This document shows, one piece after another, positions 39,413 through 58,604 of a DNA stretch of 64,000 nt (position 1 is the first letter of the stretch; every line of letters begins with the position of its first letter). The notes beneath the pieces were generated by a model that saw nothing but the letters and a program-made list of their open reading frames with translations, was not told the DNA's origin and ran no database searches. The stretch lies in contig JAFLTW010000003.1 of assembly GCA_022509085.1 (NCBI GenBank), positions 124,001-188,000 of the forward strand, written 5' to 3'. Origin of the DNA: Muribaculaceae bacterium. GTDB lineage: Bacteria > Bacteroidota > Bacteroidia > Bacteroidales > Muribaculaceae. Position numbers and translations under genes: made by a program.

Positions 39413-39606
39413 GAAGGTGATGCCGAAGGTTTGGGGGCGGTCGAGGGCGCGGTAGCCGATGGCTTCGGCGATGTGGCGCGCCTCGACGGGAGCAGAGACA
39501 GCGGAGGAGAGGGCGGCGGTGTATGCCTCGGAAGGAGCACGGTTGGCCATATCGTCGAATTCAACAGGTTCAATCTCTACCTGAATGTTGATACTGTCGG
39601 AGATTA
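39413..39606 (-). pseudogene. comM 3'-end remnant A (internally deleted)
   Basis: On the minus strand this reads '[20 protein letters not shown]' fused in frame to a variant of '[20 protein letters not shown]' and then '[15 protein letters not shown]', the last part of ComM with about 130 codons deleted from the middle. The reading frame runs on to a stop at 39398. The end carries the GAGGGCGCGG variant also present in remnants B and C, not the AAGGGCTCTG of the intact gene. Most of the gap 39090-39656 is this remnant plus the barrel-gene leader; nothing else was recognised there. Confidence 0.9.
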
Positions 39607-39656
39607 TATCCTCCCGTTTTCCTTCGAGATTTTTATTTGTGTCAGTTGGACTAATT

Positions 39657-40118
39657 TTATTTGTTTAACGGTGTTAGGAAAATAAAAACAACCTCATTTT
39701 CACCAGATTGGAAGTTCGTTAATTGTTCTAATTGTTTAACGTATCCTGCCGAATGTTCACGAATATTTTCAATGATTTCCGTTTCCGAAAACTCTCCTTC
39801 CTTTTCTGAAGTACGGATAATCAGGTCACTGGTAATATCCGAACCGTTAAAATATCGAGAAGCTTGCGACATCGCTTTTACTGAAGCTACACGATTAAGC
39901 TCTGAATCTCCTTTATATTTTGTTTTATCCAGTTTTACTACAGACATAAGATATGCATTATCGTAGTCTTCGACAGCCTTTACTCCATCGAAAGGAGAGT
40001 TTTCATACATTCTGATTAGGAAATTAGTCAAAGCAGTCCGCTCTTGATTATAATTTTGAGAAAATATGCAAGGGATTTGAAACAGTATAGCCACTAAAAA
40101 TATTATTACCTTCTTCAT
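39657..40118 (-). CDS. secreted protein, last gene of second DUF6175 cassette
   Basis: The 153-residue product has a signal peptide (MKKVIIFLVAILFQIPCIFS) followed by a small mixed alpha/beta domain ('NSPFDGVKAVEDYDNAYLMS', 'RVASVKAMSQASRYFNGSDI'). No family was recognised. It starts 22 bases after the 605-residue gene and is AT-rich like the rest of the cassette. It ends about 50 bases before the comM remnant. Periplasmic location is inferred. Confidence 0.7.
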   Translation of the reverse strand: MKKVIIFLVAILFQIPCIFSQNYNQERTALTNFLIRMYENSPFDGVKAVEDYDNAYLMSVVKLDKTKYKGDSELNRVASVKAMSQASRYFNGSDITSDLIIRTSEKEGEFSETEIIENIREHSAGYVKQLEQLTNFQSGENEVVFIFLTPLNK

Positions 40119-40140
40119 CGGGATGGATATATTTTAGAAT

Positions 40141-41958
40141 TTAATTGTCGTTTGGTTCAATTTTAAATGAGGCATATTTTGATATCTCCGACTTTGGCAA
40201 TAAAACATAAATTTCCCAATCAGATCCAAAGCAAGTAAATATTTTGCCGGTTCTATCTTCAAATCGTGATGGCGCTTTTATAAAAAATAAATTAGAGAGA
40301 ATCCCAGTGCTTCCCAAACAAGTGAAATCCCAGCTACCATTATCAAAGTCAGACAACTGAAATTTTTTGATTTTATAGGGGATACAATATTGAGTGTTTA
40401 TATCGTAACAAAGATCTCTACAAAACTCGGGGTAATCTTCATATTTTTTTATTATTACGCCATCCATTAATTCATCCTCCAAAGCGTTTCTCTCTTCTTC
40501 CGAAAGGAAGTCAATTGATTCAAAATATCTATGATCAAACCCTCCTTGCGACCAATCTTTTAAATTTGCAAGTTTAACGGGTGCAAAATCACTTATCTGG
40601 CCCGTATTATCAACTATTACAAAGTTGTTTTTTATGTTATTCAGCTCTGTCACGAGCCTGTCAAACCATACCGCTATATCTTTTGGTGAGTTACGAAAAC
40701 AAGAGTAGTGATCTTCTGATATAAGAAATGATTGAAAATAGGTAACGTTATAACCTTGATCTTTCAAATGATTGTAACTCTTAGAATCCAATGATAAAGA
40801 ATTAACGGTCTCTCGAAATGCTTTTACCACCGGGTTATTATTTAATAATTCTTCAGACCTTCTATTTTCTTCTTTTAACCTTTTATATTCTATGCTGTTT
40901 GGTTCCCATACAACATCAAATTTAATAACAGCATATTGATCTGACGGCATCATTTCCATAATAGCCAACGTTCCTTCGTCTTTTTCATATCTATTATTTT
41001 GTAAAAAGTTATTCAAAAGCCCGCTTATATTTTCGTTAAATTCAATTGTGTGGCCATTATTGCTATTCCTATATTCACTTGAAAAAAATTCTCCTAAAGC
41101 ATAATTCTCATGCTCATTTAGTTCATATTTGAAATCTATCAATTTAGGTTGATCTACTACTAACTTCCACTCCATGCAGTTTTTAGCCAGTTCCTTTAAA
41201 TAAGGAATAAGGTTATATAAAGCCTTAAGTTCGTTTTGTTTCTCAATCTCAAAGAGTCGAATATTTAAACCGAATTCATTGCCCGCAAACTCACATTCAC
41301 TTCCGTGGTTTTTTGCATAGGTAATTAAATGAGGTAGAGATACGGTTGCTGTAATGGTAACATTATATCTACCGCTGGATAAAAGGACGGATGAGAGTTC
41401 AGAATAATCTTTAATCGCACCATTTGTAACCGTAATAATTTCATCCTTAACCAACTCGTCATTGAGAATAGTGGTATTAGCAGAGACAAAAGCACCATAA
41501 GACTGCTCAATTGCACTCCTCAAAGCGTTTTTGACCGCTTCGTCTTTTGTGGCACCGTCGGAAGTAACAGTTAGAACAATCTCATCTTTTGAATTTGTTT
41601 CTTTTATCCCATCTGAACTCGTGTTTTGTGTGGAGGTTTGGGAATCGGAATAACTATTGTTAGCCGATGTCATGTCATTATGGGAGAGATCCGAGCTTTC
41701 GATTTCTTTAAGAGAGATGGTTCCAAGCGCTTCTTCCAAAAGCAACAGGCTGTTTTCATAACGCTCTCGTAGCCGGTCTTTTACATTAGAGGGTGTACTG
41801 GTGTCCTTATTAAGATTCTCCAGATCCTTTTTCAACTGTTTTATTTCATTCTGAATTGTTTTCTTTTCTTGTTTGGTCAGCTGATTATCCTGATCAGGGA
41901 ATGCATAAGTGCATAATCCTGTAAATGCTATAATAAGAATCAGATATAATTTTCTCAT
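40141..41958 (-). CDS. large secreted protein with coiled coil and LPP20/FlgT-like domain
   Basis: The 605-residue product has a signal peptide ending near residue 19 (FTGLCTYAF). A Lys/Glu-rich coiled coil (about 25-80) and a Ser/Asn linker precede a domain reading 'VTSDGATKDEAVKNALRSAI' then 'EQSYGAFVSANTTI' (about 130-170). That resembles the N-terminal fold of FlgT or LPP20-type envelope proteins, in which 'A...A..A...' helices follow a strand. The C-terminal 350 residues are unassigned. It lies 4 bases after the lipoprotein-like gene of the cassette. Probably periplasmic or outer-membrane associated. Confidence 0.72.
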   Translation of the reverse strand: MRKLYLILIIAFTGLCTYAFPDQDNQLTKQEKKTIQNEIKQLKKDLENLNKDTSTPSNVKDRLRERYENSLLLLEEALGTISLKEIESSDLSHNDMTSANNSYSDSQTSTQNTSSDGIKETNSKDEIVLTVTSDGATKDEAVKNALRSAIEQSYGAFVSANTTILNDELVKDEIITVTNGAIKDYSELSSVLLSSGRYNVTITATVSLPHLITYAKNHGSECEFAGNEFGLNIRLFEIEKQNELKALYNLIPYLKELAKNCMEWKLVVDQPKLIDFKYELNEHENYALGEFFSSEYRNSNNGHTIEFNENISGLLNNFLQNNRYEKDEGTLAIMEMMPSDQYAVIKFDVVWEPNSIEYKRLKEENRRSEELLNNNPVVKAFRETVNSLSLDSKSYNHLKDQGYNVTYFQSFLISEDHYSCFRNSPKDIAVWFDRLVTELNNIKNNFVIVDNTGQISDFAPVKLANLKDWSQGGFDHRYFESIDFLSEEERNALEDELMDGVIIKKYEDYPEFCRDLCYDINTQYCIPYKIKKFQLSDFDNGSWDFTCLGSTGILSNLFFIKAPSRFEDRTGKIFTCFGSDWEIYVLLPKSEISKYASFKIEPNDN

Positions 41959-41962
41959 ACGT

Positions 41963-42934
41963 TTACCAATTTAGATATACCTTTGTTAGGTGTTGATTTT
42001 CTGCTCGTTTCTCAGCTACTGAACGGCAAGCAGCTATCGTTGCCATTGCTCTGGCATGAGAATTGGCTTGTTCCTTCCGCTGGAATTCCTTTTTGTCTTT
42101 ATATTCCTGGAGTGCCTTTTCATATTCTCTATTTTTGTCAGACTGAATTGAAGCAGACATTGTTTCCACAAGAGCTTGTCCTTGGTCAAATGCAGCAGAA
42201 TTAACGGGGATCATATCAAGAAATGAAATTGCTGTTTGAGCCCCTTCCATACTTGGATTTATTGCCCAAGCATTTTTTGCTTTAGATAATAACTTGAGTC
42301 CGTCAGAGTCGATTTTGTGGTTATAGATTGTAATCGCCGTTGACTGCGCCTCATTTAAACAATCCTTGCATATTGCCGGAACCGATACTAGAAGACTAAT
42401 AGCCTCGTCATATTCACCAGTTGAAGCCAGAGTTTTAGCCTGTGTTATTATGCTTTGGCAATTTTCTGAATAATAATCCTCGATTCTTTCTTTGGCTGTA
42501 TTAAACAGGTCTTTAAATTGGGGATTTGAGGAGTTCAAATTGTTGAAAGCGGATTGCCATGCCTTATGTTCATTAGTTCCGATTCCTTTTAAATCAAAAG
42601 TGGCTGATGCAAAAATTATATTTTCCAGGGCATCTCCTATCAGGAATGTCACCTCAACTGTCTGAGAAATGCGGGGAGGAGTAGTCGGAACTATATTTTT
42701 CTCGACAACATTACATTTTGCAAGAATTACAAAACGCTCTGCATATTCAAGATTTCCTATCCCGTTCTGAGTCATTGCTTGCTCCATTTTGGCAATCAAA
42801 GACAATTTTGCATCTTCGGGCAAGCCATTTCCAACTACTACCGGATAGTATGACAACTCGTATTCATTTAACTTTGATGCCTGAATGTTATGAAAACTCA
42901 GGCATAGAAAAATTAACAGAAATATTTTTTTCAT
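41963..42934 (-). CDS. exported protein, paralogue of the lipoprotein at 2687-3868
   Basis: The 323-residue protein has a signal peptide (MKKIFLLIFLCLSFHNIQA) but no lipobox Cys, unlike its paralogue. The N-terminal domain has 'LIAKMEQAMTQNGIGNLEYA' and 'EVTFLIGDALENIIFASATF'. A helical repeat region follows ('LASTGEYDEAISLLVSVPAI') with a charged coiled-coil tail ('YEKALQEYKDKKEFQRKEQA'). The layout matches 2687-3868 domain by domain. It overlaps the DUF6175-like gene by 4 bases, the same coupling as in the first cassette. Confidence 0.78.
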   Translation of the reverse strand: MKKIFLLIFLCLSFHNIQASKLNEYELSYYPVVVGNGLPEDAKLSLIAKMEQAMTQNGIGNLEYAERFVILAKCNVVEKNIVPTTPPRISQTVEVTFLIGDALENIIFASATFDLKGIGTNEHKAWQSAFNNLNSSNPQFKDLFNTAKERIEDYYSENCQSIITQAKTLASTGEYDEAISLLVSVPAICKDCLNEAQSTAITIYNHKIDSDGLKLLSKAKNAWAINPSMEGAQTAISFLDMIPVNSAAFDQGQALVETMSASIQSDKNREYEKALQEYKDKKEFQRKEQANSHARAMATIAACRSVAEKRAENQHLTKVYLNW

Positions 42935-43884
42935 TTCTCTCCTAAAATTAATATGGCTTCGCCTAATCCGCGTATTATTACCTTTGAATTAATATTATAT
43001 GGTGCTTTCTGCAAATATTTCCTGAGAGATGTCGCAAATGCCCGGGCATCCGTTGCATTCCCGTTTTTGTCGGATAATGGGATTCTTACTTGTTCGAATT
43101 GAGCAAAATTTTCTGACCCGTCACTGAGATTAAAATTTCCATTGACCGAATTTTCTCGCATCCATTTTTGAATACAATCAATCAGTTCTTCGCCTCCGTA
43201 TTCGGTTTCTAAATCATTCTCCCAATTGTCCCAGCATCTAACCGTCAATACTATTTCTCGGCCGTTTTTCTTTTGATCGGCATACCATTTATCAAGCTGT
43301 TTGTCAAAATCCTTTACATTGTCTTTCACTGCCTTCTCGAGAGCAACGGGAATTGCATCCTGAGTAGGCTTGGAATTACCTGTTGCCGTGGCAATACGCT
43401 TGTTGGTGTATGCATCAAAAGCTTCAAGGGTAAACGAAACTATTTTACCTGTGGGTTCCTTGGTGAAATTCCACCATAATTGAATGACTATATCGGACTT
43501 CAGCCTGCGCTTTAAGATGTCAAGAGGTGTTTCTGCAATATTAGCACCTGACGTTTTACTTGATACAGCATTGTCTTCCGCCTGTTTTACATTAAGCGAT
43601 TTAATTTCCATCTCTGCATCTTTCAGACTATATCCCATGCCTGTAAGCACAGCGCCAACCTTTGAAAGGACCTGCGGAAGTTCCATGTCCTCATTAAAAG
43701 CTCTTTGGTAGTCGGGAATCCTAATTGTTGATCCCATATCTTCAAAAGACTGAGTGAAATATCGTTGTGTACACCAATTATCGCTTGGAAGTATCATCAA
43801 TGTAGGTTTCTTCACTTCCTCCGCTAATACAGTTAGCGATATCACGAGGAGTAAACTCATTAGAAGTCTTAAATGCTTCATCAC
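42931..43884 (-). CDS. DUF6175-like exported protein
   Basis: The 317-residue protein has a signal peptide (RLLMSLLLVISLTVLAEE) without a lipobox. Signatures are 'KKPTLMILPSDNWCTQRYF', 'LKSDIVIQLWWNF', 'SFTLEAFDAYTNKRIATATG' and 'IIRGLGEAILILGEK'. It is paralogous to the lipoprotein at 1677-2690. The family is common in Bacteroidota and has no known function. It is placed 4 bases after the small P-loop gene. Confidence 0.8.
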   Translation of the reverse strand: MMKHLRLLMSLLLVISLTVLAEEVKKPTLMILPSDNWCTQRYFTQSFEDMGSTIRIPDYQRAFNEDMELPQVLSKVGAVLTGMGYSLKDAEMEIKSLNVKQAEDNAVSSKTSGANIAETPLDILKRRLKSDIVIQLWWNFTKEPTGKIVSFTLEAFDAYTNKRIATATGNSKPTQDAIPVALEKAVKDNVKDFDKQLDKWYADQKKNGREIVLTVRCWDNWENDLETEYGGEELIDCIQKWMRENSVNGNFNLSDGSENFAQFEQVRIPLSDKNGNATDARAFATSLRKYLQKAPYNINSKVIIRGLGEAILILGEK

Positions 43885-43888
43885 AACC

Positions 43889-44350
43889 TTATTTTTCTAT
43901 TTCGTTAGCCTTGTCAATGATATTCAGAATGTTCTCAGCGCATATCTTGTTGAGAACATCAGCACTTACGTGTTTCCCCCAATTGTCATATTTTACTATG
44001 GTGGAGGTTTCGAAGGTTATATAATTCTTTTCATGGGCGTAATCCCACAAAAACTTATACACGGAATCAGTTCTGTATTTCGTGCGGCTGGCGGCTACTA
44101 TGAAATCTACACCCTTTGCATGACAGTATTCTACTTTCTCTCTAACATAATCCGTACATCCCGGGTCTCCCAAGGTGATAATACCGATTTTCATTCCGTT
44201 GCGTTCTGTTATTACCAACACATCGTCTCCATAGGTAGTCGGCTCTCGATCCATCGGCTCCTTCCCGTCAAGAAGATTGTCAATTAAGTTTTTCAATGTG
44301 CTTGTCTTCCCTCTAGAACCGGCACCTTTCACTATAAGCATTATTGCCAT
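43889..44350 (-). CDS. small P-loop NTPase
   Basis: The 153-residue cytosolic protein has Walker A GAGSRGKTST (residues about 9-18), a second strand motif 'MKIGIITLGDPG' (about 53-64, like a Walker B/switch region) and 'DFIVAASRTK' where GTPases carry base-recognition motifs. It resembles a minimal kinase or GTPase and has no close named family. Its start may be the second Met (44341). It heads the second DUF6175 operon and is preceded by a long structured leader. There is no counterpart in the first cassette. Confidence 0.75.
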   Translation of the reverse strand: MAIMLIVKGAGSRGKTSTLKNLIDNLLDGKEPMDREPTTYGDDVLVITERNGMKIGIITLGDPGCTDYVREKVEYCHAKGVDFIVAASRTKYRTDSVYKFLWDYAHEKNYITFETSTIVKYDNWGKHVSADVLNKICAENILNIIDKANEIEK

Positions 44351-44419
44351 AATAGACGTTCTTGCCGCGGTCCCCTCCTCGTTGGCTTTTGGTATACAAA
44401 AAGAGCGTGAGAGTCTGTA

Positions 44420-44554
44420 TCAGTTACTCATCTCACTACTCAAGGTCTTAGCATTACCCAATCGATAAGAGATGAGTAACGCGGAGCCCCCACGCCGTAT
44501 GATAAACCAAAGGAATATGGCAAAGCCATACCCGAATGTCGGATTTACAATCAT
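44420..44554 (-). CDS. possible 44-residue membrane peptide within the leader
   Basis: A short frame begins MIVNPTFGYGFAIFLWFIIR and ends 'LSSEMSN', with one hydrophobic helix followed by Arg-Arg-Gly-Gly. The same frame is open upstream of the ATG for another 30 codons (to a TAG near 44646) without a start. It may be a small gene, a decayed longer one, or chance within a structured RNA. Confidence 0.25.
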   Translation of the reverse strand: MIVNPTFGYGFAIFLWFIIRRGGSALLISYRLGNAKTLSSEMSN

Positions 44555-44699
44555 ACAGGAGACGCCTATCGTTACCTCGTCCTTGATATCGATTTTGAAG
44601 TTGCTAAGTTCTGAGTAGTCAAGAACAAGCGTCCAATAAACGCTCTATGTTATTAAAACATCCCTCCCGACTCTAGCTTGCCCTCTCTTGGGCTCCGCG
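44423..44699 (-). ncRNA. candidate structured RNA leader upstream of the P-loop gene
   Basis: Two long-range perfect helices abut each other: CGCGGAGCCC (44480-44489) pairs with GGGCTCCGCG (44690-44699), enclosing 200 bases, and GTTACTCATCTC (44423-44434) pairs with GAGATGAGTAAC (44469-44480). A smaller hairpin ATGGC AAA GCCAT lies near 44517-44529. A TAATTTTG -7 box on the minus strand (44715-44722) and an inverted repeat ATTATTTCC/GGAAATAAT (44726-44750) lie just upstream, so transcription would begin right before the outer helix. The remaining part of the 556-base gap (44751-44906) shows nothing recognisable. Confidence 0.5.
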
Positions 44700-44906
44700 G
44701 TTGAGATGTACTCGCAAAATTAACAATTATTTCCGAAATCGGGAAATAATAGCAAAAAAGTCAAAATAATTTTAGGAGTCCCTATAGATTGACAGATGGC
44801 TTAAAAATAAGCCACACGTTCCAATCTTACCTTTACCAACTCATCTCTCGTGTTGAAGAAGAGGGTAGTTTCCGATGCCTTGAAGGGTGTCATAAACGGT
44901 TAATCT

Positions 44907-46052
44907 TTACTTGTCATCGTTTTCGGAGAGTTGTTCCAAGGAGCTTTCGATTTCCTCGATGGTAGGGAGGGAACTTTTGAACTCCTCCGGGATGAGCTTG
45001 GATAATTCGTATTCTGAGATTCCGAGAGGGAGATTATAGCCTTCGAGGGCATACTGGGCTTCGATGTTGTCTTTATCTTTACAAATTAAAAGACCTATCG
45101 TGGGGTTATCCTGCTTGGTTTTGAGTTGATGGTTCACTGCGCTGACATAGAAGCTCAACTGACCGAGGTATTCCGGTTTGAATGATGTGGCCTTGAGCTC
45201 GATGCAGCAATATGCATGGATTCGGGTGTTGTAGAACAACAAATCTATAAAGGATTCTTTAGTCCCAACCTGAAGCCGGTATTGTCTTCCCATAAATGCG
45301 AACCCAGTGCCGAGTTCTACAAGGAATTTGGTGACGTTGGCCACCAAGGCATCTTCCAGTTCGCGCTCGTTGTAGTGTTCCGTCATAGTCAGGAAGTTGA
45401 AGACGTAAGGGTCTTTAGTTACCTGTTGGGCCAAATCGCTTTGCATCGCTGGCAGAGTCTGACTGAAATTGGATATTGCTTTACCGGACCTTTCGTATAA
45501 GTCAGTACTGAGAAAATTCAGAAGCATATCCCTTCCCCAATTGTGTTCGATTACCTTCCGAACAAAAAATAGAGCCTTCTCAGGATTGCCTTTGCATTTA
45601 TCAATAATTCTCCTTTGATGATCCCAAGGGATTGAAAATAATTCTTTTCTCAAATCGTCCGCAGGGTGCGGAAGATTTTGGCCATCGGAATCGTCTATAC
45701 CTGGAAGGCGACTTTGTCTTTCCAAATCTTCCGCAAGGTGCGGAAGATTTTTAAGCGTCTGAGAATAAAGCTCATAAAACCTACACATATATCGAATATT
45801 GGTTTCGGAAAAACCTTTCTCACCCGGCATTTCAGCCCGCAAATCATGACTCAACGTGCGGTAGAAGGCCGAACCGTAAGTGTTGGCATACTGCCTGTCG
45901 GCGATATCCTTTCCAAGGCTCCAATAATATTCCAGAAGAGTGCGGTTAGCCTCAGCAGAGGCTCTTAACCGCGCTTGAAGATAGCGCTGCTTGAGTTCTC
46001 TCACCCAAGAACGATAGTCATTATTCTGATTTAACTGCAGAAGGGGTTTCAT
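44907..46052 (-). CDS. DUF1016 (YhcG-like) PD-(D/E)XK nuclease domain protein
   Basis: The 381-residue protein has an N-terminal helical DUF1016 domain ('LLEYYWSLGKDIADRQ', 'GFSETNIRYMCRFYELYSQT') and a C-terminal nuclease core with Asp272, Glu287 and Lys289 (FIDLLFYN, then CCIELKA), followed by 'GQLSFYVSAVN'. The family is common in defence islands and around restriction systems. Between the domains is a variable loop containing two in-frame copies of NLPHxAxDL, encoded by two palindromic 29-base repeats. The start is 14 bases after remnant B of comM. Confidence 0.85.
   Translation of the reverse strand: MKPLLQLNQNNDYRSWVRELKQRYLQARLRASAEANRTLLEYYWSLGKDIADRQYANTYGSAFYRTLSHDLRAEMPGEKGFSETNIRYMCRFYELYSQTLKNLPHLAEDLERQSRLPGIDDSDGQNLPHPADDLRKELFSIPWDHQRRIIDKCKGNPEKALFFVRKVIEHNWGRDMLLNFLSTDLYERSGKAISNFSQTLPAMQSDLAQQVTKDPYVFNFLTMTEHYNERELEDALVANVTKFLVELGTGFAFMGRQYRLQVGTKESFIDLLFYNTRIHAYCCIELKATSFKPEYLGQLSFYVSAVNHQLKTKQDNPTIGLLICKDKDNIEAQYALEGYNLPLGISEYELSKLIPEEFKSSLPTIEEIESSLEQLSENDDK
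45651..45751 (-). repeat. paired palindromic in-frame repeats inside the DUF1016 gene
   Basis: Copy 1 (45651-45680) and copy 2 (45723-45751) are near-identical 29-30 base units. Copy 2 contains a perfect hairpin CTTCCGCA AGG TGCGGAAG. Copy 1 has GTCCGCA AGG-type arms with one mismatch. Both encode N-L-P-H-x-A-x-D-L. Confidence 0.75.
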
Positions 46053-46066
46053 AATAATGTTTGGTT

Positions 46067-46312
46067 TCAGAAGGTGATGCCGAAGGTTTGGGGGCGGTCG
46101 AGGGCGCGGTAGCCGATAGCCTCGGCGAGATGGGAGACCAAAATCGGCATATCTACTTTTACGGTAAAATATTTCTGGGCAACGTTATCGGGATTGATAT
46201 AGACTGCATCTTCAAGCCACTCGCTTCTTAGCAATCTTGAAGTTATGGTCGTTTTGCCAGAACCGTTAGGACCTGCTATGACAATTAGAATTGGTTTATG
46301 TATGGAGGTCAT
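46067..46312 (-). pseudogene. truncated zeta-toxin-like kinase fused in frame to comM remnant B
   Basis: The 81-residue open frame starts with a zeta-toxin-like P-loop (ILIVIAGPNGSGKTT, residues 8-22, then 'YINPDNVAQKYF') but loses the rest of the toxin at about residue 60. It continues as '[20 protein letters not shown]', the ComM C-terminus (DNA 46067-46130). A functional zeta kinase needs about 200 residues or more, so the toxin is inactivated. It overlaps the partner gene by 4 bases. Confidence 0.88.
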
Positions 46313-46509
46313 ACTTTTTTAGAATTAGATAGAGAGCGGTTTTTCGCCTCTTCGCATTTCTCATGCAGAGTTTCAAAGAAGCGTTTGTTTGCTATCTTGT
46401 TACTTTCTCTCGCGTCCGCCGCGGCCTGCCGCATCAGCTCGGCCAACTGCTCGTCGGTAGGATCAGTCTCGTCGTTGAATCGGTATGAATGAAATTGAGC
46501 GTCTGTCAT
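46309..46509 (-). CDS. putative antitoxin partner of a zeta-type toxin
   Basis: The 66-residue helical acidic/basic protein ('ETDPTDEQLAELMRQAAADA', 'KIANKRFFETLHEKCEEAKN') lies immediately upstream of, and overlaps by 4 bases, the truncated zeta-like kinase. Such short helical proteins commonly neutralise zeta/PezT-like kinases in Bacteroidota. With the toxin broken it may be an orphan antitoxin. Confidence 0.65.
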   Translation of the reverse strand: MTDAQFHSYRFNDETDPTDEQLAELMRQAAADARESNKIANKRFFETLHEKCEEAKNRSLSNSKKV

Positions 46510-46544
46510 AATGTGTGTTTTAGAATTGCAAATTTACTGAACTC

Positions 46545-46612
46545 TATGCAATGGTGCAAATTTCTGCGCCAGGGCGTTCATGCGTTTGGCGAGTTCACGG
46601 GGCAGTACGGCG
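46545..46612 (-). other. short coding-like relic (copy 1)
   Basis: On the minus strand this reads as a gene end, 'LPRELAKRMNALAQKFAPL' plus a few residues to a stop, with no start upstream. A diverged copy lies at 52433-52480; both share the 17-base core CGCATGAACGCCCTGGC. The parent gene is unknown. Confidence 0.45.
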
Positions 46613-46638
46613 CCTAAAGACTAACGCTATATAAATCA

Positions 46639-46671
46639 GGGGGAGTCTCTCACTCCCCCTTTATTTTTACC
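46639..46671 (+). terminator. strong hairpin terminator
   Basis: GGGGGAGT (46639-46646) pairs perfectly with ACTCCCCC (46652-46659) over a 5-base loop and is followed by TTTATTTTT on the plus strand. It lies 60 bases beyond the stop of the DJ-1/PfpI gene and may act in both directions. Confidence 0.75.
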
Positions 46672-46731
46672 CCTATGGGGCAAGTTCTATATCATTGCCT
46701 ATTATAATAAGTGATGGAATTTAACTGCCTT

Positions 46732-47418: not shown

Positions 47419-47509
47419 ATTTAGAGGTCTACATATTTAAGGTCTAAATAGAGAACGCTCGCACTCCCCCGTTGGTTTTCTCCCCTCCCCGAGATATCGG
47501 ACATCAAAA

Positions 47510-49611: not shown

Positions 49612-49624
49612 CAACTCGAAACCC

Positions 49625-49856: not shown

Positions 49857-49874
49857 CAAAGCGTTCCTCCAAAG

Positions 49875-50059: not shown

Positions 50060-50219
50060 GTCCTCCTTCTCCTCAATGTTTTTACACCTCGCGACTATGC
50101 CTGACTCCCGGACTGTCCTCAGTTCGTGGGATCGACTAATAATTCCTCGATATCCACATTCTGAAAAAACGGTCTTCCACTTCATACCCCGCATCGGTCC
50201 GGGCTATCATTCCCTCTTT

Positions 50220-50250
50220 TATGCAAAATTACATTATGTAATTTTGCATA
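50220..50250. repeat. 31-base perfect palindrome with back-to-back -7 elements
   Basis: TATGCAAAATTACAT, one T, then the reverse complement. Each arm contains TAATTTTG reading outward, so it could serve as a pair of divergent Bacteroidota promoters or as an operator. Partial repeats (TTTTACATAATGCA) follow. Confidence 0.6.
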
Positions 50251-50492
50251 ATGCAGTTTTACATAATGCAATCTGCCATAATCGCCTACCGTTTCTGAAT
50301 CCGCGTGCCGATAAGGCACACATTAGGCGAGTTTACAGGGAGAGAACAACCTGATGGAAAGCAGAATCAAAAGCATCTCTCCATGATTTTTAAAAGGTGA
50401 TGAGCAAAATGTGAAATAATATTCGTATATTCGCAACAGTTTTTAATTCAACTGGATGAGAATAATCTCCAAGATAGAAAATGAAATAAAAT

Positions 50493-51458: not shown

Positions 51459-51534
51459 GCTCTGCGCCAAACACGGCTATATCATCTGAATCTCACGCAA
51501 GCATTTTATCCAGGCAGGTGATGTTGGAATTCCC

Positions 51535-52206
51535 TTATCGAGATTTCATCACTATCGGCAGGATTTGAGAGGGACTGGCCACGAGATGGTCAGGAGCCGC
51601 ATCCATGAGTTCTTGCTGCGGACTGAATCCCCATGTAACCGCAATGGAGGGGATTCCGGCCTTCCGTGCCGTTTCAATATCCACCGTGCTGTCACCGACC
51701 ATAATTGCCCGGGCTTCAGAGAGGGCGTTATCCGCCATGATGCTCTTCAGGATGGCCGGATCAGGCTTTATGGGGCGGCCATACCTTTGCCCTTCAATAC
51801 TGACGAATTCAATTTTGGGGAAGTAATGGCGGATAATCCTGTCGACGGCAGCCTGATATTTATTTGAGGCCACAGCCAGCTTTACCCCGCGTGCCTGCAG
51901 CTCTTCAAGAAGCGCAGGAATCCCCGGATACGGAGTCGTAGACTCCATGCAATGATTATCGTAATATTCACGGCTTAACCGGGTGAGGCAATCAAGTGTT
52001 TCGGGCAGGGTGGCAGGCGGAGCCGCTCTCTCAATCAGCTTTCGGAAGCCATTGCCAACCATCCTGTGATAATCCGCTACGGGATGTGTCGGCATTCCTG
52101 AAACGGAGAGCGCATGGTTGCACGCTTTTCCCAAGTCGGAAATCGTGTTGAGCAGAGTTCCGTCAAGATCAAATATTACTGTTGGTTGTGAATGTGTATC
52201 TGTCAT
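51535..52206 (-). CDS. HAD-superfamily phosphatase, phosphoglycolate phosphatase-like
   Basis: The 223-residue protein has all four HAD motifs: DLDGT (Asp13 nucleophile and Asp15), 'VASNK', 'KPDP' and 'MVGDSTVDIETARKAG'. A helical cap domain lies between motifs I and II. The likely reaction is hydrolysis of 2-phosphoglycolate or a related phosphate ester. Its first 15 or so codons are duplicated at 8362-8406. It lies about 290 bases beyond comM remnant C and reads in the same direction as comM. Confidence 0.87.
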   Translation of the reverse strand: MTDTHSQPTVIFDLDGTLLNTISDLGKACNHALSVSGMPTHPVADYHRMVGNGFRKLIERAAPPATLPETLDCLTRLSREYYDNHCMESTTPYPGIPALLEELQARGVKLAVASNKYQAAVDRIIRHYFPKIEFVSIEGQRYGRPIKPDPAILKSIMADNALSEARAIMVGDSTVDIETARKAGIPSIAVTWGFSPQQELMDAAPDHLVASPSQILPIVMKSR

Positions 52207-52432
52207 AATAGTTGTTGCTTATGATTGCCGTGCTCATAAACCCGACTTGTGGTTTCGCAAATATAGTCCAAATTTATGATATTACCAAACCAAGTGCCGC
52301 GCGCCCTATGATGATCTAGTGGGCGGGTGATACCACTAACTTGGCCAAGAACACATCAAAGATTTATGCGAACGGGTTCGCCCACAGTAAAACAAAGGGG
52401 AGCCGGAGATCTATAGCCTTGTTATCACTTCG

Positions 52433-52480
52433 GCCAGGGCGTTCATGCGCTCGCAGAGCTCGCGTGAAAGCTCTGTGCAT
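52433..52480 (-). other. short coding-like relic (copy 2)
   Basis: On the minus strand this reads 'LSRELCERMNALAEVITRL' followed by a stop, directly after the end of comM remnant C. It is homologous to the relic at 46545-46612, with codon-level divergence outside the 17-base core. The rest of the 284-base gap 52207-52490 shows an imperfect inverted repeat (CCAAGTG near 52291 with CACTAACTTGG near 52333) but no gene. Confidence 0.45.
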
Positions 52481-52490
52481 TGATGCTAAT

Positions 52491-53292
52491 TTAGAAGGTG
52501 ATGCCGAAGGTTTGGGGGCGGTCGAGGGCGCGGTAGCCGATGGCTTCGGCGATGTGGCGCGCCTCGACGGGAGCAGAGACAGCTGCAGAGAGGGCGGCCA
52601 TATATTCGGCAGAGGGAGAACCATTCGGTTCGGAGGAGTTTGAGGCAGAGCGGGAGGGGAGGGTGGTGGCGGATTCCAGGTCGGCGATGGTGCGGGCGAC
52701 CCTTAAAATTCTATCGAAGGCGCGGGCTGACATGTTCAGCTTGGTCATACGGTCCTTGAGCTTCTTCAGGCCGGCTTCGTCGGGCCAGGCGAACTGGCGG
52801 AGCTGCCTGCCGCTCATCTGGGCGTTGCAGTGGATGCCGGGGAGGTCCTTGAAGCGCTCGCGCTGTATGTCGCGTGCCGCCATCACACGCTTCCTAATCT
52901 CACTGCTCGACTCCGAAGGAGCACGGTTGGCCATGTCGTCGAATTCAACAGGCTCAATCTCTACCTGAATGTCGATGCGGTCCATAAGCGGTCCGGAGAT
53001 CTTGCTCATATATTTCTGCACCTGGTTGGGCATGCAGGTGCAGCGGCGCGTTGGATGTCCGTAATAGCCGCAAGGGCAAGGATTCATCGAGGCTACGAGC
53101 ATGAACGAGGCAGGGTAATCCACCGTATATTTGGCGCGGGAGACGGTAATGACCCTATCCTCTATCGGCTGGCGCATCACCTCCAGCACCTGACGCGGAA
53201 ATTCCGGGAATTCATCGAGGAAAAGCACCCCGTTGTGAGCCAGGGAAATCTCTCCCGGCATCGGGTTGGCACCGCCGCCGACAAGGCCACGA
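52491..53292 (-). pseudogene. comM 3'-half remnant C
   Basis: About 800 bases correspond to the last 268 codons of comM (from '[20 protein letters not shown]' to '[10 protein letters not shown]' and stop), nearly identical to the intact gene except for small indels in the Ser-rich segment and silent changes. The Walker A half is missing, so it cannot be functional. One base is lost at the 5' junction (acaaggccac instead of acaagggccac), after which homology ends abruptly. Confidence 0.93.
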
Positions 53293-53332
53293 CACTAGTA
53301 CACGATTCGGTGTAAGAAGAAATAGTCATTCT

Positions 53333-55101
53333 TTAGGTGTGTGCATTTATAGTTGGAGGAGTCGAAATTAAATTTTCCTGTAACTTTCTTTTCAGAAGTG
53401 TCTTACGCGCACTGATAAAATTATTGAAATCTTTATAGTCCAAACTTACATCGACAGGGATTAAATGAGATTCAAAAAACAGGTCCTTGTTCTTACCAGC
53501 ATCCAATTCCTTCTTAACCCATGAGTCAAGAGGCTCGGCATTTTTGACATGTTTTCATTGGCATCAAGCATTTGAAGGTTCAAAATGGAATTGTGAATCT
53601 CCCAGGAATGGTCTGCATTGTTAGCATCATAGGAAATTGCCGGATGCATGTGGTCAAGATGGAAAATATTGCCATAATCAAGATGAGGAAATAAAACCGA
53701 GAGAATTGAAAATGCGTATGGTTGATCCTTTTGTGTCATAAGTATTTCATCTAATGTTTCCTCATTGAGATAATCATCATGCTTTAATACTTTTGAAAGT
53801 CTAACTTCTGGGAAAGATTTTAATGATTTCGCCTTAATAAAATCTTCCTGGTTCTCTTCATCGAGCATTTCCTTTCTAACTCTTGCCAAAGTTTGGTCTG
53901 AACTACCACCAAAACTTTTAAACAGAAGACTCCGGAGTAACCATCTTTTAATCAATGCCCTTTCCTCCTTGAGGGAAGCCGAATTTGCAATTGTTGTATA
54001 GGTTCCACTATAATATAAATAGAACACTATGGGTAATACTGCATTATTGGATGTAAGGGTTCTACCATTGAATCCCATTCCCTTCAACAAAACAAAGCAC
54101 TGATACAAACAATCTCGGATCGACTCCCAATTTTCTTCAATTTTTTCAATAAATACATTACTGAAACTTTTGATTCTAAATCTTATGTCCTTATGATATA
54201 AAACAAGAAAACTTCTCAATACTAAGTCTTTACTTATATTAAATCCCAAATTGTTAATTTGATCCACCAATCCGTTTATTTCGGTGCGTGCGTCTTTAGA
54301 TTGCCAAGTGGCGGTAGCCAAAGACATTAGTATGTCGGAAAAAGTCAGCTGGGTACCTCCGGAATTAATCCTAACAAAAATGTTGACAGCAGTATCCGGA
54401 TCTGTTGTATCTTCCTCATAATAATTTATTAAATGTGTGTTACAGATAACCTTCTCTAGTTTGCGTAAAACCTTTTTCTCCTCTTTAGTTAATTCATTAG
54501 AATCGCTGAAATCGTCGATATCTTCTGTATCACCTGAGTATAAATCAAGAATTTTGGAAACCCTAAACCATTTATCGACTTCTTTATCAACGAAGAGAGG
54601 CAATTCCTGACTTTCAGCTTTATCAATGAAGAGAAAATTATAGGTTTTATCGGATTCGTCTTCGGGAAAGATTCTCGATATATTGAGGTAAAGATGGCGG
54701 GTAGGGAAATTTTGCTCTAAATTAATCCAACGTGCACGAAGCTTCTTATATGCGTATGAGCCGCATAACCCTAAATACAATGAGGTGAGACGTTGCTGGC
54801 CATCTAATATAGCCCAAAAATCATTTGTTAGGTTTGTATCAAACGAATCATTGTGCACATGGTAACGCTCGATATAATAACGTAGTATCGAATAAAAACG
54901 ATATTTACTTTTAGCCTCCCCCTTGACTCTCCAAAACAACATAGAGCTAATGGGATAGCCTTTCATAAGGGAGTCAAAAAGTGTTTCTACCTGATTTGCC
55001 GACCATACATATTCCCGTTGGAATGAGGGTAATAAATATTCATTATGGCTAATTCTATGAATAGCCTCTCTAATTGTAATTGGAGATTGAAATCCTGCCA
55101 T
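53333..55101 (-). CDS. DUF262/DUF1524 (GmrSD-like) protein with a frameshift near the C-terminus
   Basis: The N-terminal DUF262 part has 'LLPSFQREYVWSANQVETLF' and DGQQRLTSLYLGL (nucleotide-binding motifs). The C-terminal DUF1524 HNH-like part has 'FHLDHMHPAISYDANNADHS'. After 'MLDANENMSK' a run of five A (minus strand; T5 at 53541-53545) lacks one base, and the reading ends at 53461. Restoring the base gives a natural family ending ('NAEPLDSWVKKELDAGKNKD', 'LFFESHLIPVDVSLDYKDF', 'FISARKTLLKRKLQENL') to a stop at 53333. GmrSD-type enzymes are modification-dependent nucleases in phage defence. Phase variation, decay or a sequencing error are all possible. Confidence 0.82.
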
Positions 55102-55213
55102 TTGCTATTTAAATTTAAATATTTACTAATTATATTTTTGCTTATATTATTTTCTTTGATTTCAGAAAACAGTTCTTTAGGGTGTTATGAATCCCATCAG
55201 GGTGAAACCCAAC

Positions 55214-55699
55214 CTAAATAATGATCTTGTTATCGGGCTGAAGGCTCGATATTTGCTTGAGGTCTACATTGTAGCTCCTAAGGAATCTGATTTTTGCACG
55301 TTCCAATGCCGACCGTGAGGCACTTGACACTCCTCTGTTGCTTATTATTCTCGCCCTCGCTTTATCTTTCTTTGATGGATACGGCATGAACAGAGGATTT
55401 TTAATTGTGGATTCCAGCTGGTCTATGGCATGGCTTATATCGCCTCCTTTTAATTCCAAAAATACGGCGATACCCGAGTTATCATTTAGAACGGTAATAA
55501 ATTTGTCGCATCGTTGACCTTCTTTTATGGCAACGCCATCAATTGGATAGATAATAACAATATTTGTCCCTTCTATTTCTACATTATAGTTGACGCCCTT
55601 TTCTGTCACTGAAACTTTTTTCATGAGAGAAGGTCCCTTGTCAGGATTAACGCCCAAAGCGTCAAGACGCAGCCTTCTTTCAAAAGCATATTTACCCAT
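55214..55699 (-). CDS. putative PD-(D/E)XK-like nuclease partner of the ATPase
   Basis: The 161-residue soluble protein has a core 'GQRCDKFITVLNDNSGIAVF' followed by LELKGG, giving Asp65, Glu82 and Lys84 in PD-(D/E)XK spacing, then a helix 'DISHAIDQLESTI'. A basic C-terminal half contains 'KKDKARARIISNRG'. The family is not named, so nuclease activity is inferred from this pattern. The start overlaps the AAA ATPase stop by 8 bases, indicating a two-gene unit. Confidence 0.7.
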   Translation of the reverse strand: MGKYAFERRLRLDALGVNPDKGPSLMKKVSVTEKGVNYNVEIEGTNIVIIYPIDGVAIKEGQRCDKFITVLNDNSGIAVFLELKGGDISHAIDQLESTIKNPLFMPYPSKKDKARARIISNRGVSSASRSALERAKIRFLRSYNVDLKQISSLQPDNKIII

Positions 55700-56873
55700 A
55701 GATTATCTCGTTAAAATGGCTGATAAGGTCTTCGTAATTATCTGATATGCTATCCAAATAGGTGCCGTCAATTATCTGCAATTCTTCATCAAGAATGTTT
55801 CTGATTTCTCCCTCTCTCACCTCCCATGCTCTAATTTCCGAGGGGTTGATTTCCGGCATATTGATTTCGTCTCTTTCTGCCATGCCAGAGGCTCGGAATG
55901 CTCGGCTCATGATGTTTAAGGCGGTGATAATATACGGACTGTGAGTTGCCAGGGTAAGATTCATATCAGCCTCCTTACATTCTAGACAACATTTTACCAG
56001 ATACTTCATCAGGCCCCATTGATTCGATGGGAAAAGACTCAATTCGGGTTCTTCTAAATGAACACTTATAATCTTATTTGGGAACTTACCTATATCAGTG
56101 GAGGCCCTGAACTTCGACAGATTATCAGTCTCGGCAAGATATTTCAGTATTGTGGAATTCATGGCTTCCACAATATTAAAATGCTCAGCAAAATATTGCA
56201 TTATAAAATGCAATGCAACACTGTTTTGTATTCCGGAAGATGCACTCGTCAACGGTAGATTATCGAACGAATCGACGTTTTCCCGGCCACTGACATACAC
56301 TCTCCGGAAACCATTGGTTTTGACAACATTCATTTTCACTCCTAAATAAGCCAATTCAGTTGAATTTATGGCATCAATGGCTTTTTGGAAGTTCAAAAAA
56401 GTTTCATCAAGATAAAACATGTTATGCCTAAGCGCAACATTACCTGCCGCCAAATCGGGTATCATGACTCTTTTGTCAGATATATAGGCTATCTTTTGGA
56501 TTGTGAGTTCTTCCTTGGAAACAGTTTTTTTGGGCAGATCTATTTTACCGTTCTTAATTATAATATCAAAATTCCCATTACTGTAATGAATTCTTGTGTT
56601 GTAATGTAAGAACGGTTTCAGTCCATTCTTAGCCAGAATGTTACCGAGATTTAGTCTAAAAGGGCTGCTGTTGATGCCTGAGATTTTAAGATAAGAACGC
56701 ACACACATCATCTTATAAATCCAGCGCATCATAGCCAATACTTTCATAATGGTACTTTTACCCGATCCGGATTCTCCTATAAATACACTAATCTTCTTTA
56801 AATCCCAAATCGTAATATCTTTGATTGGGCCAAAGTTTTTTATTTCAATGCTTTCTCTTCCAGTCAATATCAT
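55692..56873 (-). CDS. AAA/ABC-type ATPase (OLD-like, without TOPRIM domain)
   Basis: The 393-residue protein has Walker A GESGSGKST (33-41), an ABC-like signature TSASSGIQ (209-216), Walker B 'IISVHLEEPELSLFP' with Glu274/275, and switch His311 in LATHSPYI. This is the AAA_15/AAA_21 arrangement of OLD-type ATPases found in defence systems. It has no TOPRIM nuclease of its own; the overlapping downstream gene may supply it. It has its own promoter directly behind comM. Confidence 0.85.
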   Translation of the reverse strand: MILTGRESIEIKNFGPIKDITIWDLKKISVFIGESGSGKSTIMKVLAMMRWIYKMMCVRSYLKISGINSSPFRLNLGNILAKNGLKPFLHYNTRIHYSNGNFDIIIKNGKIDLPKKTVSKEELTIQKIAYISDKRVMIPDLAAGNVALRHNMFYLDETFLNFQKAIDAINSTELAYLGVKMNVVKTNGFRRVYVSGRENVDSFDNLPLTSASSGIQNSVALHFIMQYFAEHFNIVEAMNSTILKYLAETDNLSKFRASTDIGKFPNKIISVHLEEPELSLFPSNQWGLMKYLVKCCLECKEADMNLTLATHSPYIITALNIMSRAFRASGMAERDEINMPEINPSEIRAWEVREGEIRNILDEELQIIDGTYLDSISDNYEDLISHFNEIIYG

Positions 56874-56892
56874 TATACTAAAGATTTTATTG

Positions 56893-56924
56893 CAAATTTA
56901 CTTTAATCTCTCTTATCCTACAAA
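56893..56924 (-). promoter_or_regulatory. promoter of the ATPase-nuclease-DUF262 cassette
   Basis: On the minus strand, TTTG (56921-56924) and TAAATTTG (56893-56900) are 20 bases apart, between the comM stop and the ATPase start. The cassette therefore carries its own promoter right at the comM junction. Confidence 0.7.
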
Positions 56925-56948
56925 TGTTTACACCATATGATAAACATT

Positions 56949-58604
56949 TTAGTAGGTGATGCCGAAGGTTTGGGGGCGGTCAAGGGCTCTGTAGCCGATG
57001 GCTTCGGCGATGTGGCGCGCCTCAACGGGAGCAGAGACAGCGGCGGAGAGGGCCGTCATATATTCGGCAGAGGGAGAACCGCTTGCTTCTGAAGAGGCAG
57101 GGTTAGGGGCTGCGGAGCCGGAGCGGGAGGGGAGGGCGGAGGCGGATTCCAGGTCGGCGATGGTGCGGGCGACCCTTAAAATTCTATCGAAGGCGCGGGC
57201 CGACATGTTCAGCTTGGTCATGCGGTCCTTGAGCTTCTTCAGACCGGCTTCGTCGGGCCAGGCGAACTGGCGGAGCTGCCTGCCGCTCATCTGGGCGTTG
57301 CAGTGGATGCCGGGGAGGTCGCGGAAGCGCTCGCGCTGTATGTCGCGCGCCGCCATCACACGTTTCCTAATCTCACTGCTCGACTCCGAAGGGGCACGGT
57401 TGGCCATATCGTCGAATTCAACAGGCTCAATCTCTACCTGGATGTCAATACGGTCCATCAGCGGTCCGGAGATCTTGCTCATATATTTCTGTACCTGGTT
57501 GGGCATGCAAGTGCAGCGGCGCGTCGGATGCCCGTAATAGCCGCAAGGGCAAGGATTCATCGAGGCCACGAGCATGAACGAGGCTGGATAATCCACCGTA
57601 TATTTGGCGCGGGAGACGGTAATGACCCTATCCTCTATCGGCTGGCGCATCACCTCCAGCACCTGACGCGGGAATTCCGGGAATTCATCGAGGAAAAGCA
57701 CCCCGTTGTGGGCTAGCGAAATCTCCCCGGGCATAGGGTTGGCCCCGCCGCCGACAAGGGCCACAGGCGAGACCGTATGGTGGGGCGTGCGGAAGGGCCG
57801 GCGCGTCATCAGCATCGAGCCTTTGGTGAGCTTGCCGGCTACGGAGTGTATCTTCGTGGTCTCGAGTGCCTCGGCCATGTCGAGGGGTGGCAGGATCGAG
57901 GGGAGGCGCTTGGCCATCATCGACTTGCCCGCACCCGGAGGGCCTACCATCAGCAGGTTGTGGCCGCCGGCACAGGCCACCTCAAAAGCCCTTTTCACCG
58001 TGTCCTGTCCCTTCACTTCCGAGAAATCGAAGTCGAAATTCTCGGCCTGTTCGGCGAAGATCCTTCGTGTGTCGATAACGGTGGGCGACAGCTCGCCCTT
58101 ATTGGACACAACCCCGACGGCCTCGGCCAGCGACGATACGCCATACACCTCCAGGCGGTTTACCACGGCCGCTTCCGTCACATTATCGACGGGCACGATG
58201 AGCTTCTTGAAGCCCATCTTTCTGGCCAACACGGCGATGGGGAGGGCTCCCTTCACGGGGAGCACCTTGCCGTCGAGCGAGAGTTCGCCGATAATCATGC
58301 AGTCGGCCAGCGCGTCAGCGGGGATGAGCTCGTTGGCTGCCAGCATACCGATAGCCATAGGGAGGTCGAACCCCGCTCCCTCCTTCTTGATGTCGGCAGG
58401 GGAGAGGTTGATCACGATACGCCGGTGTTTCCAGCCTACCTTGCTCTGTTCCAAGGCAGTTATGATGCGCTGGTAGCCGTCTTTCACCGCAGCGTCCGGG
58501 AGTCCTACGATGGTGAAACCGACTCCCTGGGTCGACATGGTCTCTATGGTTACGGGTATGGCGTCGATGGCAATGATGGCTGCCGAGAAGGTCTTGGTAA
58601 GCAT
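56949..58604 (-). CDS. comM: ComM/YifB family Mg-chelatase-like AAA+ ATPase (intact)
   Basis: The 551-residue protein has an N-terminal Lon-protease-like domain (1-170), Walker A GPPGAGKS (221-228), Walker [11 protein letters not shown] (302-311) and a Cys-rich zinc-like motif '[17 protein letters not shown]'. ComM is a helicase that extends branch migration during natural transformation (known in Vibrio and Acinetobacter). It ends GITY where all three remnants end GITF, and its last 40 bases differ from theirs. A Ser/Ala-rich insertion near the C-terminus makes it longer than the usual 500 or so residues. Confidence 0.95.
   Translation of the reverse strand: MLTKTFSAAIIAIDAIPVTIETMSTQGVGFTIVGLPDAAVKDGYQRIITALEQSKVGWKHRRIVINLSPADIKKEGAGFDLPMAIGMLAANELIPADALADCMIIGELSLDGKVLPVKGALPIAVLARKMGFKKLIVPVDNVTEAAVVNRLEVYGVSSLAEAVGVVSNKGELSPTVIDTRRIFAEQAENFDFDFSEVKGQDTVKRAFEVACAGGHNLLMVGPPGAGKSMMAKRLPSILPPLDMAEALETTKIHSVAGKLTKGSMLMTRRPFRTPHHTVSPVALVGGGANPMPGEISLAHNGVLFLDEFPEFPRQVLEVMRQPIEDRVITVSRAKYTVDYPASFMLVASMNPCPCGYYGHPTRRCTCMPNQVQKYMSKISGPLMDRIDIQVEIEPVEFDDMANRAPSESSSEIRKRVMAARDIQRERFRDLPGIHCNAQMSGRQLRQFAWPDEAGLKKLKDRMTKLNMSARAFDRILRVARTIADLESASALPSRSGSAAPNPASSEASGSPSAEYMTALSAAVSAPVEARHIAEAIGYRALDRPQTFGITY

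Follow-up and report, generated by a model that had tools for sequence, protein, structure and literature searches.

Displaced comM 3′ halves and stacked accessory genes at the comM locus of Muribaculaceae

Displaced comM 3′ ends in the window

The comM gene encodes a recombination helicase acting in natural transformation and DNA uptake. Its locus was analysed in Muribaculaceae, a family abundant in the mouse gut, and in particular in a stretch of 64,000 nucleotides from a Muribaculaceae bacterium (assembly GCA_022509085.1, contig JAFLTW010000003.1, positions 124,001 to 188,000), hereafter the window, which contains an intact comM and displaced copies of its 3′ end. Cassette accretion at comM is well supported, and the locus probably collects cassettes serially at a fixed point, with replacement of the second half of the gene. 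The evidence consists of the anatomy of the arrays, their fixed junction, the functional origin of most of the longer displaced halves and the sharing of cargo between species, with breaks at a short conserved sequence, the arm. This stacking appears to point to an undescribed way of collecting genes, often anti-phage, in Muribaculaceae; no description of the arrangement was found in the open-licence PMC literature, with a comM query that was partly weak (it also matches ‘common’).

The intact gene, its displaced copies and their arms are located in the window as follows:

56949..58604 (−): intact comM of 551 aa, with the class A junction at codon 281
53291..53317 (−): class A arm, degenerate, directly 5′ of comM codon 281 of remnant 2
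52491..53290 (−): remnant 2, displaced comM 3′ half from codon 281 to the stop, aligned from comM nt 841 onwards
46067..46312 (−): zeta-toxin-like N-terminus that continues in frame into remnant 3, which is the last 64 nt of comM (46067-46130)
39599..39640 (−): class B arm, directly 5′ of comM nt 1150 of remnant 4
39409..39598 (−): remnant 4, in which an internal deletion connects comM nt 1150-1221 with the final ~110-130 nt

A preliminary description of the window had reported three same-strand remnants of the comM 3′ end, and a repeat search made without prior knowledge recovered them at 52490-53290, 46065-46133 and 39408-39606, all on the comM strand; compared with intact comM, the first contains a 300-nt block at 95% and a 149-nt block at 90%, and the third 149-nt and 72-nt blocks around its internal deletion. 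Five of the 47 first-look candidates in the window's genome (G000) were scored by genome-wide BLAST, which also confirmed the remnants, with E-values of 0 for 52491-53290, 2.7e-39 and 4.2e-21 for two blocks of the third of them, and 9.7e-17 for the 65-nt copy. The terminal residues are also as first described: all the remnants carry GAGGGCGCGG and end in GITF, while the intact gene carries AAGGGCTCTG and ends in GITY. Remnant 2 lacks one base near its start and has 6/3/39 mismatches at the three codon positions, none a stop; remnant 4 has no stop codon, TTCTGG being found instead, and the kinase part fused to remnant 3 covers roughly the N-terminal 50 residues of a zeta-toxin-like protein (Pfam Zeta_toxin).

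A 23-nt comM tail pattern, with up to three mismatches allowed, gave five matches in the window's genome and none in the 110 other species of the genus, because their tails differ; its reversed control gave none in the window's genome and one in another genome (G045). A fifth comM copy lies outside the window, on the opposite strand and with a class B arm (L031:7856-7966(+), corresponding to G000:C23:117857-117966); BLAST with the genome's own comM placed it at C23:117867-117930, on the plus strand, 63 kb from comM. This copy lies in AT-rich DNA; judged by eye, a YefM/Txe-like toxin-antitoxin pair comes before it, and a Bro-N-like fragment and then a kinase-like gene come after it. The Bro-N-like gene type is found directly after comM in three other species (L058, L071 and L100; cluster c29).

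Fixed junctions and a conserved arm

Aligned with the comM of their own genome, the remnants start at nt 841 in G000, G411, G085 and G083, and at nt 1150 in G005 and G094; remnant 4 and the copy outside the window also begin at nt 1150 by BLAST. G411 appears to be the same record as locus L156 (same cargo, genus g18), and the two are not independent cases. Each junction has its own arm: arm A, about 27-28 nt long, precedes nt 841 (codon 281, class A), and arm B precedes nt 1150 (codon 384, class B). Arms of the class B type occur before nt 1150 also in L031:7856-7966, G094 and G005, which together with remnant 4 are the four cases used to build the class B model.

The arm is best defined in genus g18, where its consensus is TCCCACCACATAATCGTATACTTGTGCC, after which comM continues, and where the preceding 60 nt are unrelated in most pairs. 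A search of 397 family genomes with the arm pattern detected 22 arms, distributed over 14 genomes that all belong to g18, and none in the reversed control; GTNGC of codon 281 follows 21 of the 22 and ATTGC the remaining one. Inverted arms were not found in the 19 loci scanned. Among 23 arms (253 pairs) the median identity was 0.33 in the 60 nt upstream, 0.89 in the arm and 0.70 in the 60 nt of comM that follow. In the window's genus and in G160 the arms have diverged from that of g18, with 15-18 of 27 positions equal (P 1.6e-3 to 1.9e-5 each, fixed register); the class A arm of the window has 18/27 (binomial P 1.9e-5). In the window's genus, a 21-nt pattern (TTCCACCACCAAACTGTCTAC) gave nine matches, distributed over 8 of 111 genomes, and the context shows five of these to be genuine; the reversed control gave eight, so that it is the context, and not the pattern alone, that is significant there; a longer arm pattern matched 3 of 397 genomes, with no match in the control.

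The position of the junction was also examined by protein searches. A 62-residue query bearing the arm matched at least 368 of the 397 family genomes (30 genera), mostly once, as plain comM would, and at least 20 genomes two or more times. In a repeated search of 18 of the latter, G000 and G085 being left out, 20 matches in 14 genomes reached into the arm (query start ≤8), and 20 regions were then fetched. Blocks of comM were present in 19 of these loci, with 26 extra comM pieces in all; residue 281 is the exact start of 19 pieces, and another begins at 278, with the arm before 281; three blocks merely continuing a piece are left out of this count, and the G008 region gave no block. Other starts are at residues 292 (G238, arm present), 238 (G180, no arm), 284 (G044) and, in G149, 274, 416 and 400, with the arm ahead of the first of these. 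The query spans residues ~281-326, so that pieces with a later start were outside the sample; G180 excepted, no piece extends upstream of residue 281. In G180 (locus L305, genus g7), a second partial comM copy without arm starts near residue 238, ~1-2 kb downstream. In a protein database of mostly unnamed open reading frames (ORFs), arm A precedes residue 281 in 18 of 23 ORFs that were opened, query included (from 103 matches), and an arm B-like start is present in 10 of 24 (120 matches listed of 2118); these ORFs were picked for likely arms and read by eye, and the fractions do not imply a rate.

Two interpretations of the arm were rejected. In the window's genus class A arms are often in frame, as for a protein-coding start, but the g18 arm has an in-frame TAA, indicating that the arm is conserved as DNA. 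A perfect dyad was also considered, and the best pairing, 7/13, is not convincing. The alignment of the 3′ ends, which had been proposed for finding the crossover and a conserved core, places the junction at codon 281, next to a conserved arm.

Origin of the displaced halves

The mismatches between displaced and resident comM sequences fall mostly at the third codon position: 11/2/76 in G411, 3/2/37 in G005, 10/3/44 in G094 and 3/2/17 in G083. The longer pieces of g18 give 7/4/26 in G316, 12/3/53 and 21/7/85 in G168, 7/1/45 and 8/4/60 in G367, 14/7/72 in G351 and 11/4/39 in G297; the short pieces give 1/0/4 in G316, 2/0/10 in G351, 2/0/17 in G397, 4/1/9 and 3/4/11 in G238 and 8/4/17 in G257. 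This excess indicates that most of the longer remnants diverged as working genes; they represent functional 3′ halves from diverged lineages and not decayed tandem duplicates. Some displaced halves are foreign to their host: the G351 remnant is 91.8% identical to G168 comM vs 83.6% to its own comM, and the G257 remnant 95.2% to the G351 remnant vs 73.8% to its own comM. Other remnants are nearest to their own comM (94.7% in G316, 90.8% in G297).

Recurrence in the genus and beyond the family

In the genus of the window, 98 of 111 genomes had a match to the comM 3′ end, and 77 of these gave 80 loci, each covering at most 20 kb about comM and on its downstream side, many shortened by contig ends. 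When comM was compared with its own downstream DNA in 75 loci, window included, same-strand matches were found in 11, opposite-strand matches in three and a match with the reversed sequence in one; three of the 11 same-strand loci (L066, L078 and L130) are weak and chance-like. Clear tails reaching the last comM codon are present in G082 (two), G048, G100, G005 (two), G110, G040 and the window (three), and in G085 comM pieces start from nt 841 and do not reach the stop. Displaced tails were found for 8 of 70 comM genes vs 5 of 589 other ORFs in this genus; the five are one comM remnant of the window, three paralogue-like cases (tandem, by reading) and one real case, a gene similar to RAYT in G005. 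The comparison of comM loci in relatives, suggested in the preliminary description, revealed the same arrangement with other cargo in other species.

The insert can be a single gene, such as a RhuM-like one in G100, or, by eye, an antitoxin and zeta pair, which in G040 lies between comM and the tail copy. In G005 and G110, the most distal tail stands just before a chromosomal-type gene that closely follows comM in other species, as expected for the original comM end.

Several genes found behind comM recur. In the window, positions 46067-46510 contain an antitoxin-like ORF and the zeta-toxin-like gene, which is truncated after ~50 residues and runs in frame into the comM tail; G040 has an intact relative of this pair behind comM, and in G160 comM is followed by a similar antitoxin start. 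Genes for DUF4143-type ATPases (by eye) are recurrent cargo behind comM in several genera (L053, L054, L152, L226, L296, L300 and L302). The commonest clustered neighbour of comM is a RAYT-like (Y1) gene (e.g., L092, L099, L061 and L082), often accompanied by REP-like palindromes, in a wider gene order that varies.

Among 80 comM loci of named Bacteroidota, 73 of which had at least 1 kb downstream, nine same-strand and three opposite-strand matches were found. The convincing ones are L156, which belongs to Muribaculaceae, Prevotellamassilia timonensis An873, and L152 (29 nt, nearly to the stop). In An873 a DUF4143-like gene (by eye) precedes the copy, which comprises nt 883-1169 and 1480-1560 and has 3/0/8 mismatches; it starts later (nt 883) and has no recognisable arm.

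Cargo and its modularity

The cargo of the window comprises:

55692..56873 (−): AAA_15 ATPase, PDC-M29A-like (Pfam AAA_15 5e-16; PADLOC PDC-M29A 5.8e-37)
55214..55699 (−): PDC-M29B-like partner, weak match (PADLOC 3e-4; no Pfam match)
53461..55101 (−): GmrSD_N (DUF262-type) protein, HEC-05-like (Pfam GmrSD_N 1.9e-34; PADLOC HEC-05 1.1e-205)
44907..46052 (−): DUF1016/YhcG_C nuclease, PDC-S02-like (Pfam and PADLOC)
39657..44350 (−): ORF whose start is nucleotide-binding-like, DUF6175 protein and three further ORFs with no family match; GC 0.37

DUF6175-like genes are found by eye also downstream of comM in G082. The GC content of the cassette at 53293-56948 is 0.37, that of comM 0.61 and that of the genes upstream of comM 0.59. 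Between remnants 2 and 3 there are recD2, a HAD phosphatase, a DJ-1 protein, a 321-aa ORF and a tRNA-Ser, with a GC of 0.42-0.59 (0.52-0.59 for the recD2, HAD phosphatase and DJ-1 genes). This DNA is probably host chromosome and not an accessory cassette; the ‘TA/recD2’ cassette of the preliminary description is thus not retained, as recD2 and its neighbours look like host DNA.

In other species, cargo and comM sequence vary separately on the two sides of the arm. The cargo side is shared in 12 of the 253 arm pairs, and seven pairs were chosen by the authors for display. G367 and G357 have 60 of 60 positions equal before the arm and 43 of 62 after it; conversely, G357 and G257 have 22/60 before and 53/62 after. 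G316 and G397 share 57/60 on the cargo side and 35/62 in comM (ungapped). A 6.8-kb block common to G238 and G149 at 97% starts at the first base of the arm (BLAST); here the ungapped view after the arm, 18/62, is disrupted by indels. A stretch of about 340 nt that follows the intact comM of G411 is found again after the most distal copy in G367, where it reaches the contig end. Anatomy and shared cargo fit a single entry point and ordered addition, for which the occurrence of one cassette at different positions is represented by this one ~340-nt stretch.

The G316 cargo includes AbiLi/AbiLii-like and three ThsB-like proteins, and that of G367 a SusC-like receptor, SusD, two GH32 enzymes, an MFS transporter and a PfkB kinase. 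The GH32 locus, of the fructan polysaccharide type, is common to G367 and G397 (95% over 15.7 kb), so the cargo of the arrays is not only defence. Loci L294 and L296 (G367/G351 bins) share 2842 bp at 100% up to the contig end, either by recent transfer or by contamination.

Proposed mechanism

A cassette would consist of a comM 3′ half (codon 281 to stop), of cargo behind the stop and of an arm of ~28 nt. On entry at codon 281, the resident 5′ half would be joined to the 3′ half of the cassette, so that ComM stays whole, and the old 3′ half would be displaced downstream, behind the new arm; of the two comM 3′ ends, we infer that the one now joined to the 5′ half is the incoming one. Repeated entry would lead to the structure comM5′-[comM3′-cargo-arm]n-old comM3′, whose old copies would then erode through internal deletion. 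The junction between arm and codon 281 may be the recombination site, the exchange being possibly catalysed in trans by a recombinase, either host-encoded or lost; RecA recombination between the comM3′ repeats of ~700 nt would add reshuffling, excision and loss. That an incoming segment brings a new comM 3′ end and leaves the old one behind had already been proposed for the window, and the proposal is supported by the constant 5′ boundary of the remnants, by the divergence at third positions that most of the longer ones show and by the same arrangement in other species.

The window would be a worn case of this structure, in which remnant 2 represents a class A unit with defence-like cargo, remnant 3 a tail only, and remnant 4 and the L031:7856 copy relics of a class B junction, later scattered by rearrangement. 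The serial cassettes of the preliminary description therefore stand in part: remnant 2 is a clean example, but the simple three-step stack does not hold, since remnant 4 and the outside copy use the codon 384 junction and have moved apart.

It may be, as a tentative extension, that Muribaculaceae own an integron-like capture system that uses comM as its platform, in which a trans-acting host recombinase would recognise the 28-nt arm together with the adjoining second half of comM, place cassettes at codon 281 and so exchange the C-terminal half of ComM each time a defence or metabolic cassette is acquired.

The search for such an enzyme covered tyrosine and serine recombinases. PF00589 matches were present in each of 12 genomes (11 of g18 and one of g4), never on the comM or array contig, with contigs that are fragmentary. 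The Resolvase domain (PF00239) was found in 5 of 13 genomes, none on comM or array contigs, and G000 had no match at E ≤ 0.001; the same search revealed no ccr-type serine recombinase on the array contigs of the 13 genomes. The Pfam scan of the window cargo proteins, in which no DDE transposase profile was run, detected no transposition module. A RAYT transposase (Y1-type, by eye) was rejected as the agent, being absent from the window locus; each genome has between 0 and 7 RAYT matches. One RAYT cluster is represented at 21 comM loci, where it is frequently the nearest neighbour, and in three of the seven clear tail-bearing loci outside the window (G100, G005 and G048). In the IMG/VR database, the two arm patterns gave no match (exact IUPAC patterns derived from arms of the window's genus; that of g18 was not scanned there); the IMG/VR protein scan and the phage and plasmid collections yielded only other comM homologues. 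Among these, L151 (IMG/VR 3300001866_000188) and PP197248.1 are phage-like contigs from other kinds of bacteria, with a comM match ending near residue 360, perhaps a second comM site used by phages.

Several results weigh against serial cassette entry at comM. The enzyme for cassette entry was not found with tyrosine and serine profiles (DDE transposases were not searched), nor was a free cassette, carrier plasmid or phage found in Bacteroidales, nor a strain-level pair of empty and filled sites among the genomes at hand. PF00589 does occur on the comM contig in three of eight genomes of the window's genus (G000 and G082, ~50 kb from comM, and G100, with a weak match ~6 kb upstream), the other five having no match on that contig. 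The comparison of 5′ and 3′ halves of comM across the genus gave no clear breakpoint signal, the selection pattern is not clear in G085 (6/2/3) and G082 (8/8/23), and several remnants are only 26-62 nt of tail, without recognisable arm. In the window, host-like genes separate remnants 2 and 3. In G005, the tail of the RAYT-like gene next to comM is copied behind a RhuM-like gene, and displacement is thus not strictly confined to comM. This displaced RAYT tail (locus L099) lies ~2.1 kb behind comM, and its similarity continues beyond the stop codon. The linked recombinase that the preliminary description had proposed to look for did not emerge: searches for tyrosine and serine types were negative in the g18 arrays, and the nearest tyrosine recombinase in the window's genome is ~50 kb from comM.

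Alternative explanations

The main rival of a site-specific step in trans is RecA homologous recombination alone, of the Campbell type, with circles or linear DNA carrying comM 3′ and cargo from relatives, the arm being an inherited old junction. The homology of ~700-800 nt per unit, the mosaic ancestry of comM3′, the failure to find a recombinase on the array contigs tested and the role of ComM itself in natural transformation all agree with it; however, a passive relic is not expected at the edge of ever-new cargo, whereas the arm keeps an identity of 0.89 beside mostly unrelated sequence, and a second fixed junction, at codon 384, has a different arm. RecA alone is thus a possible but rather doubtful explanation, and the site-specific step is preferred because the arm stays conserved at the edge of changing cargo.

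The units might also derive from a prophage or integrative element of a large serine or tyrosine integrase targeting comM, which has since lost the integrase, the arm being an attachment half-site, whose length the arm fits. Phage DNA with a comM piece exists (L151 and an Acetoanaerobium phage record), and a weak integrase-like frame (G100:C1:21856-22419; 659 aa, PF00589 26.5 bits) was observed ~6 kb upstream of comM in G100. Such phages, however, usually interrupt the gene or rebuild a short end of it, and not a diverged half of 700 nt; the comM match of the two phage examples ends near residue 360, not 281, and neither PF00589 (0/12 genomes) nor PF00239 (0/13) was found on array or comM contigs. 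This origin is therefore considered unlikely, even with magnesium chelatase homologues among the predicted integrase targets (12.4%; PMC10083194, seen in part).

A local duplication of the comM 3′ end in tandem, with later decay and separate insertions, is very improbable, since the same orientation of the copies, their position mostly downstream of comM and the even decay of the G085 remnant are outweighed by the third-position excess in most longer copies, with no stops among the differences, by remnants nearer to other species than to their own gene and by the conserved arm at the copy start; the duplication that the preliminary description had named as a refuting possibility is accordingly disfavoured. 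An assembly or binning artefact at repeats of metagenome-assembled genomes is hardly credible: most genomes are drafts of at least 20 contigs and the 2842 bp shared by G367 and G351 could be contamination, but the same junction recurs across many species, several arrays lie wholly within one contig (e.g., G316 and G238), and a similar arrangement occurs in P. timonensis An873, which is recorded as a strain and not as a metagenome-assembled genome.

Under serial cassette entry, the arm and codon 281 of comM provide a sequence handle for locating stacked accessory genes, many of them anti-phage-like, and the displaced comM halves a fossil record of successive acquisitions. The arrays also raise the question of what moves the cassettes without a recognised recombinase, and why they are carried by a gene of DNA uptake.

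Comparison with known systems

SCC elements in staphylococcal rlmH restore a short 3′ end by means of a ccr recombinase, and form composite stacks split by attachment repeats, some without recombinase. The comM units resemble them in the 3′ end of a core gene restored by the element, with the old end kept downstream, and in the stacked arrays; unlike the short end and ccr of SCC, each comM unit has ~700-800 nt of coding sequence, which is diverged between units. Integron arrays consist of ordered cassettes that presumably enter at a single end; a short conserved site follows the cargo, and the recombinase is not in the cassettes. Similarly, comM cassettes with different cargo are separated by a conserved short site, but the site of the comM array is half a host gene; PF00589 matches are found elsewhere in all 12 genomes tested, the integron integrase profile not being used.

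Islands and prophages in dusA also make site-specific use of a core protein gene, but at its 5′ end and with the integrase gene present; stacked displaced halves are not mentioned in the part of the source that was available (PMC4482086). In a survey of large serine recombinases, magnesium chelatase homologues, to which comM belongs, are favoured targets, accounting for 12.4% of predicted site-specific integrases (PMC10083194, in the part consulted); the arrays differ in having no resolvase-domain gene on their contigs in 13 genomes, and in the two phage examples ending near residue 360. The AbaR or Tn6022-type islands of Acinetobacter baumannii, which had been proposed as a parallel, likewise use comM as a recurrent insertion site for accessory DNA. 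According to the portion of the source considered (PMC7253598), AbaR disrupts comM and carries transposition genes; an AbaR-type insertion was rejected for the window, where comM is intact and open over 551 codons, and each unit brings its own comM 3′ half.

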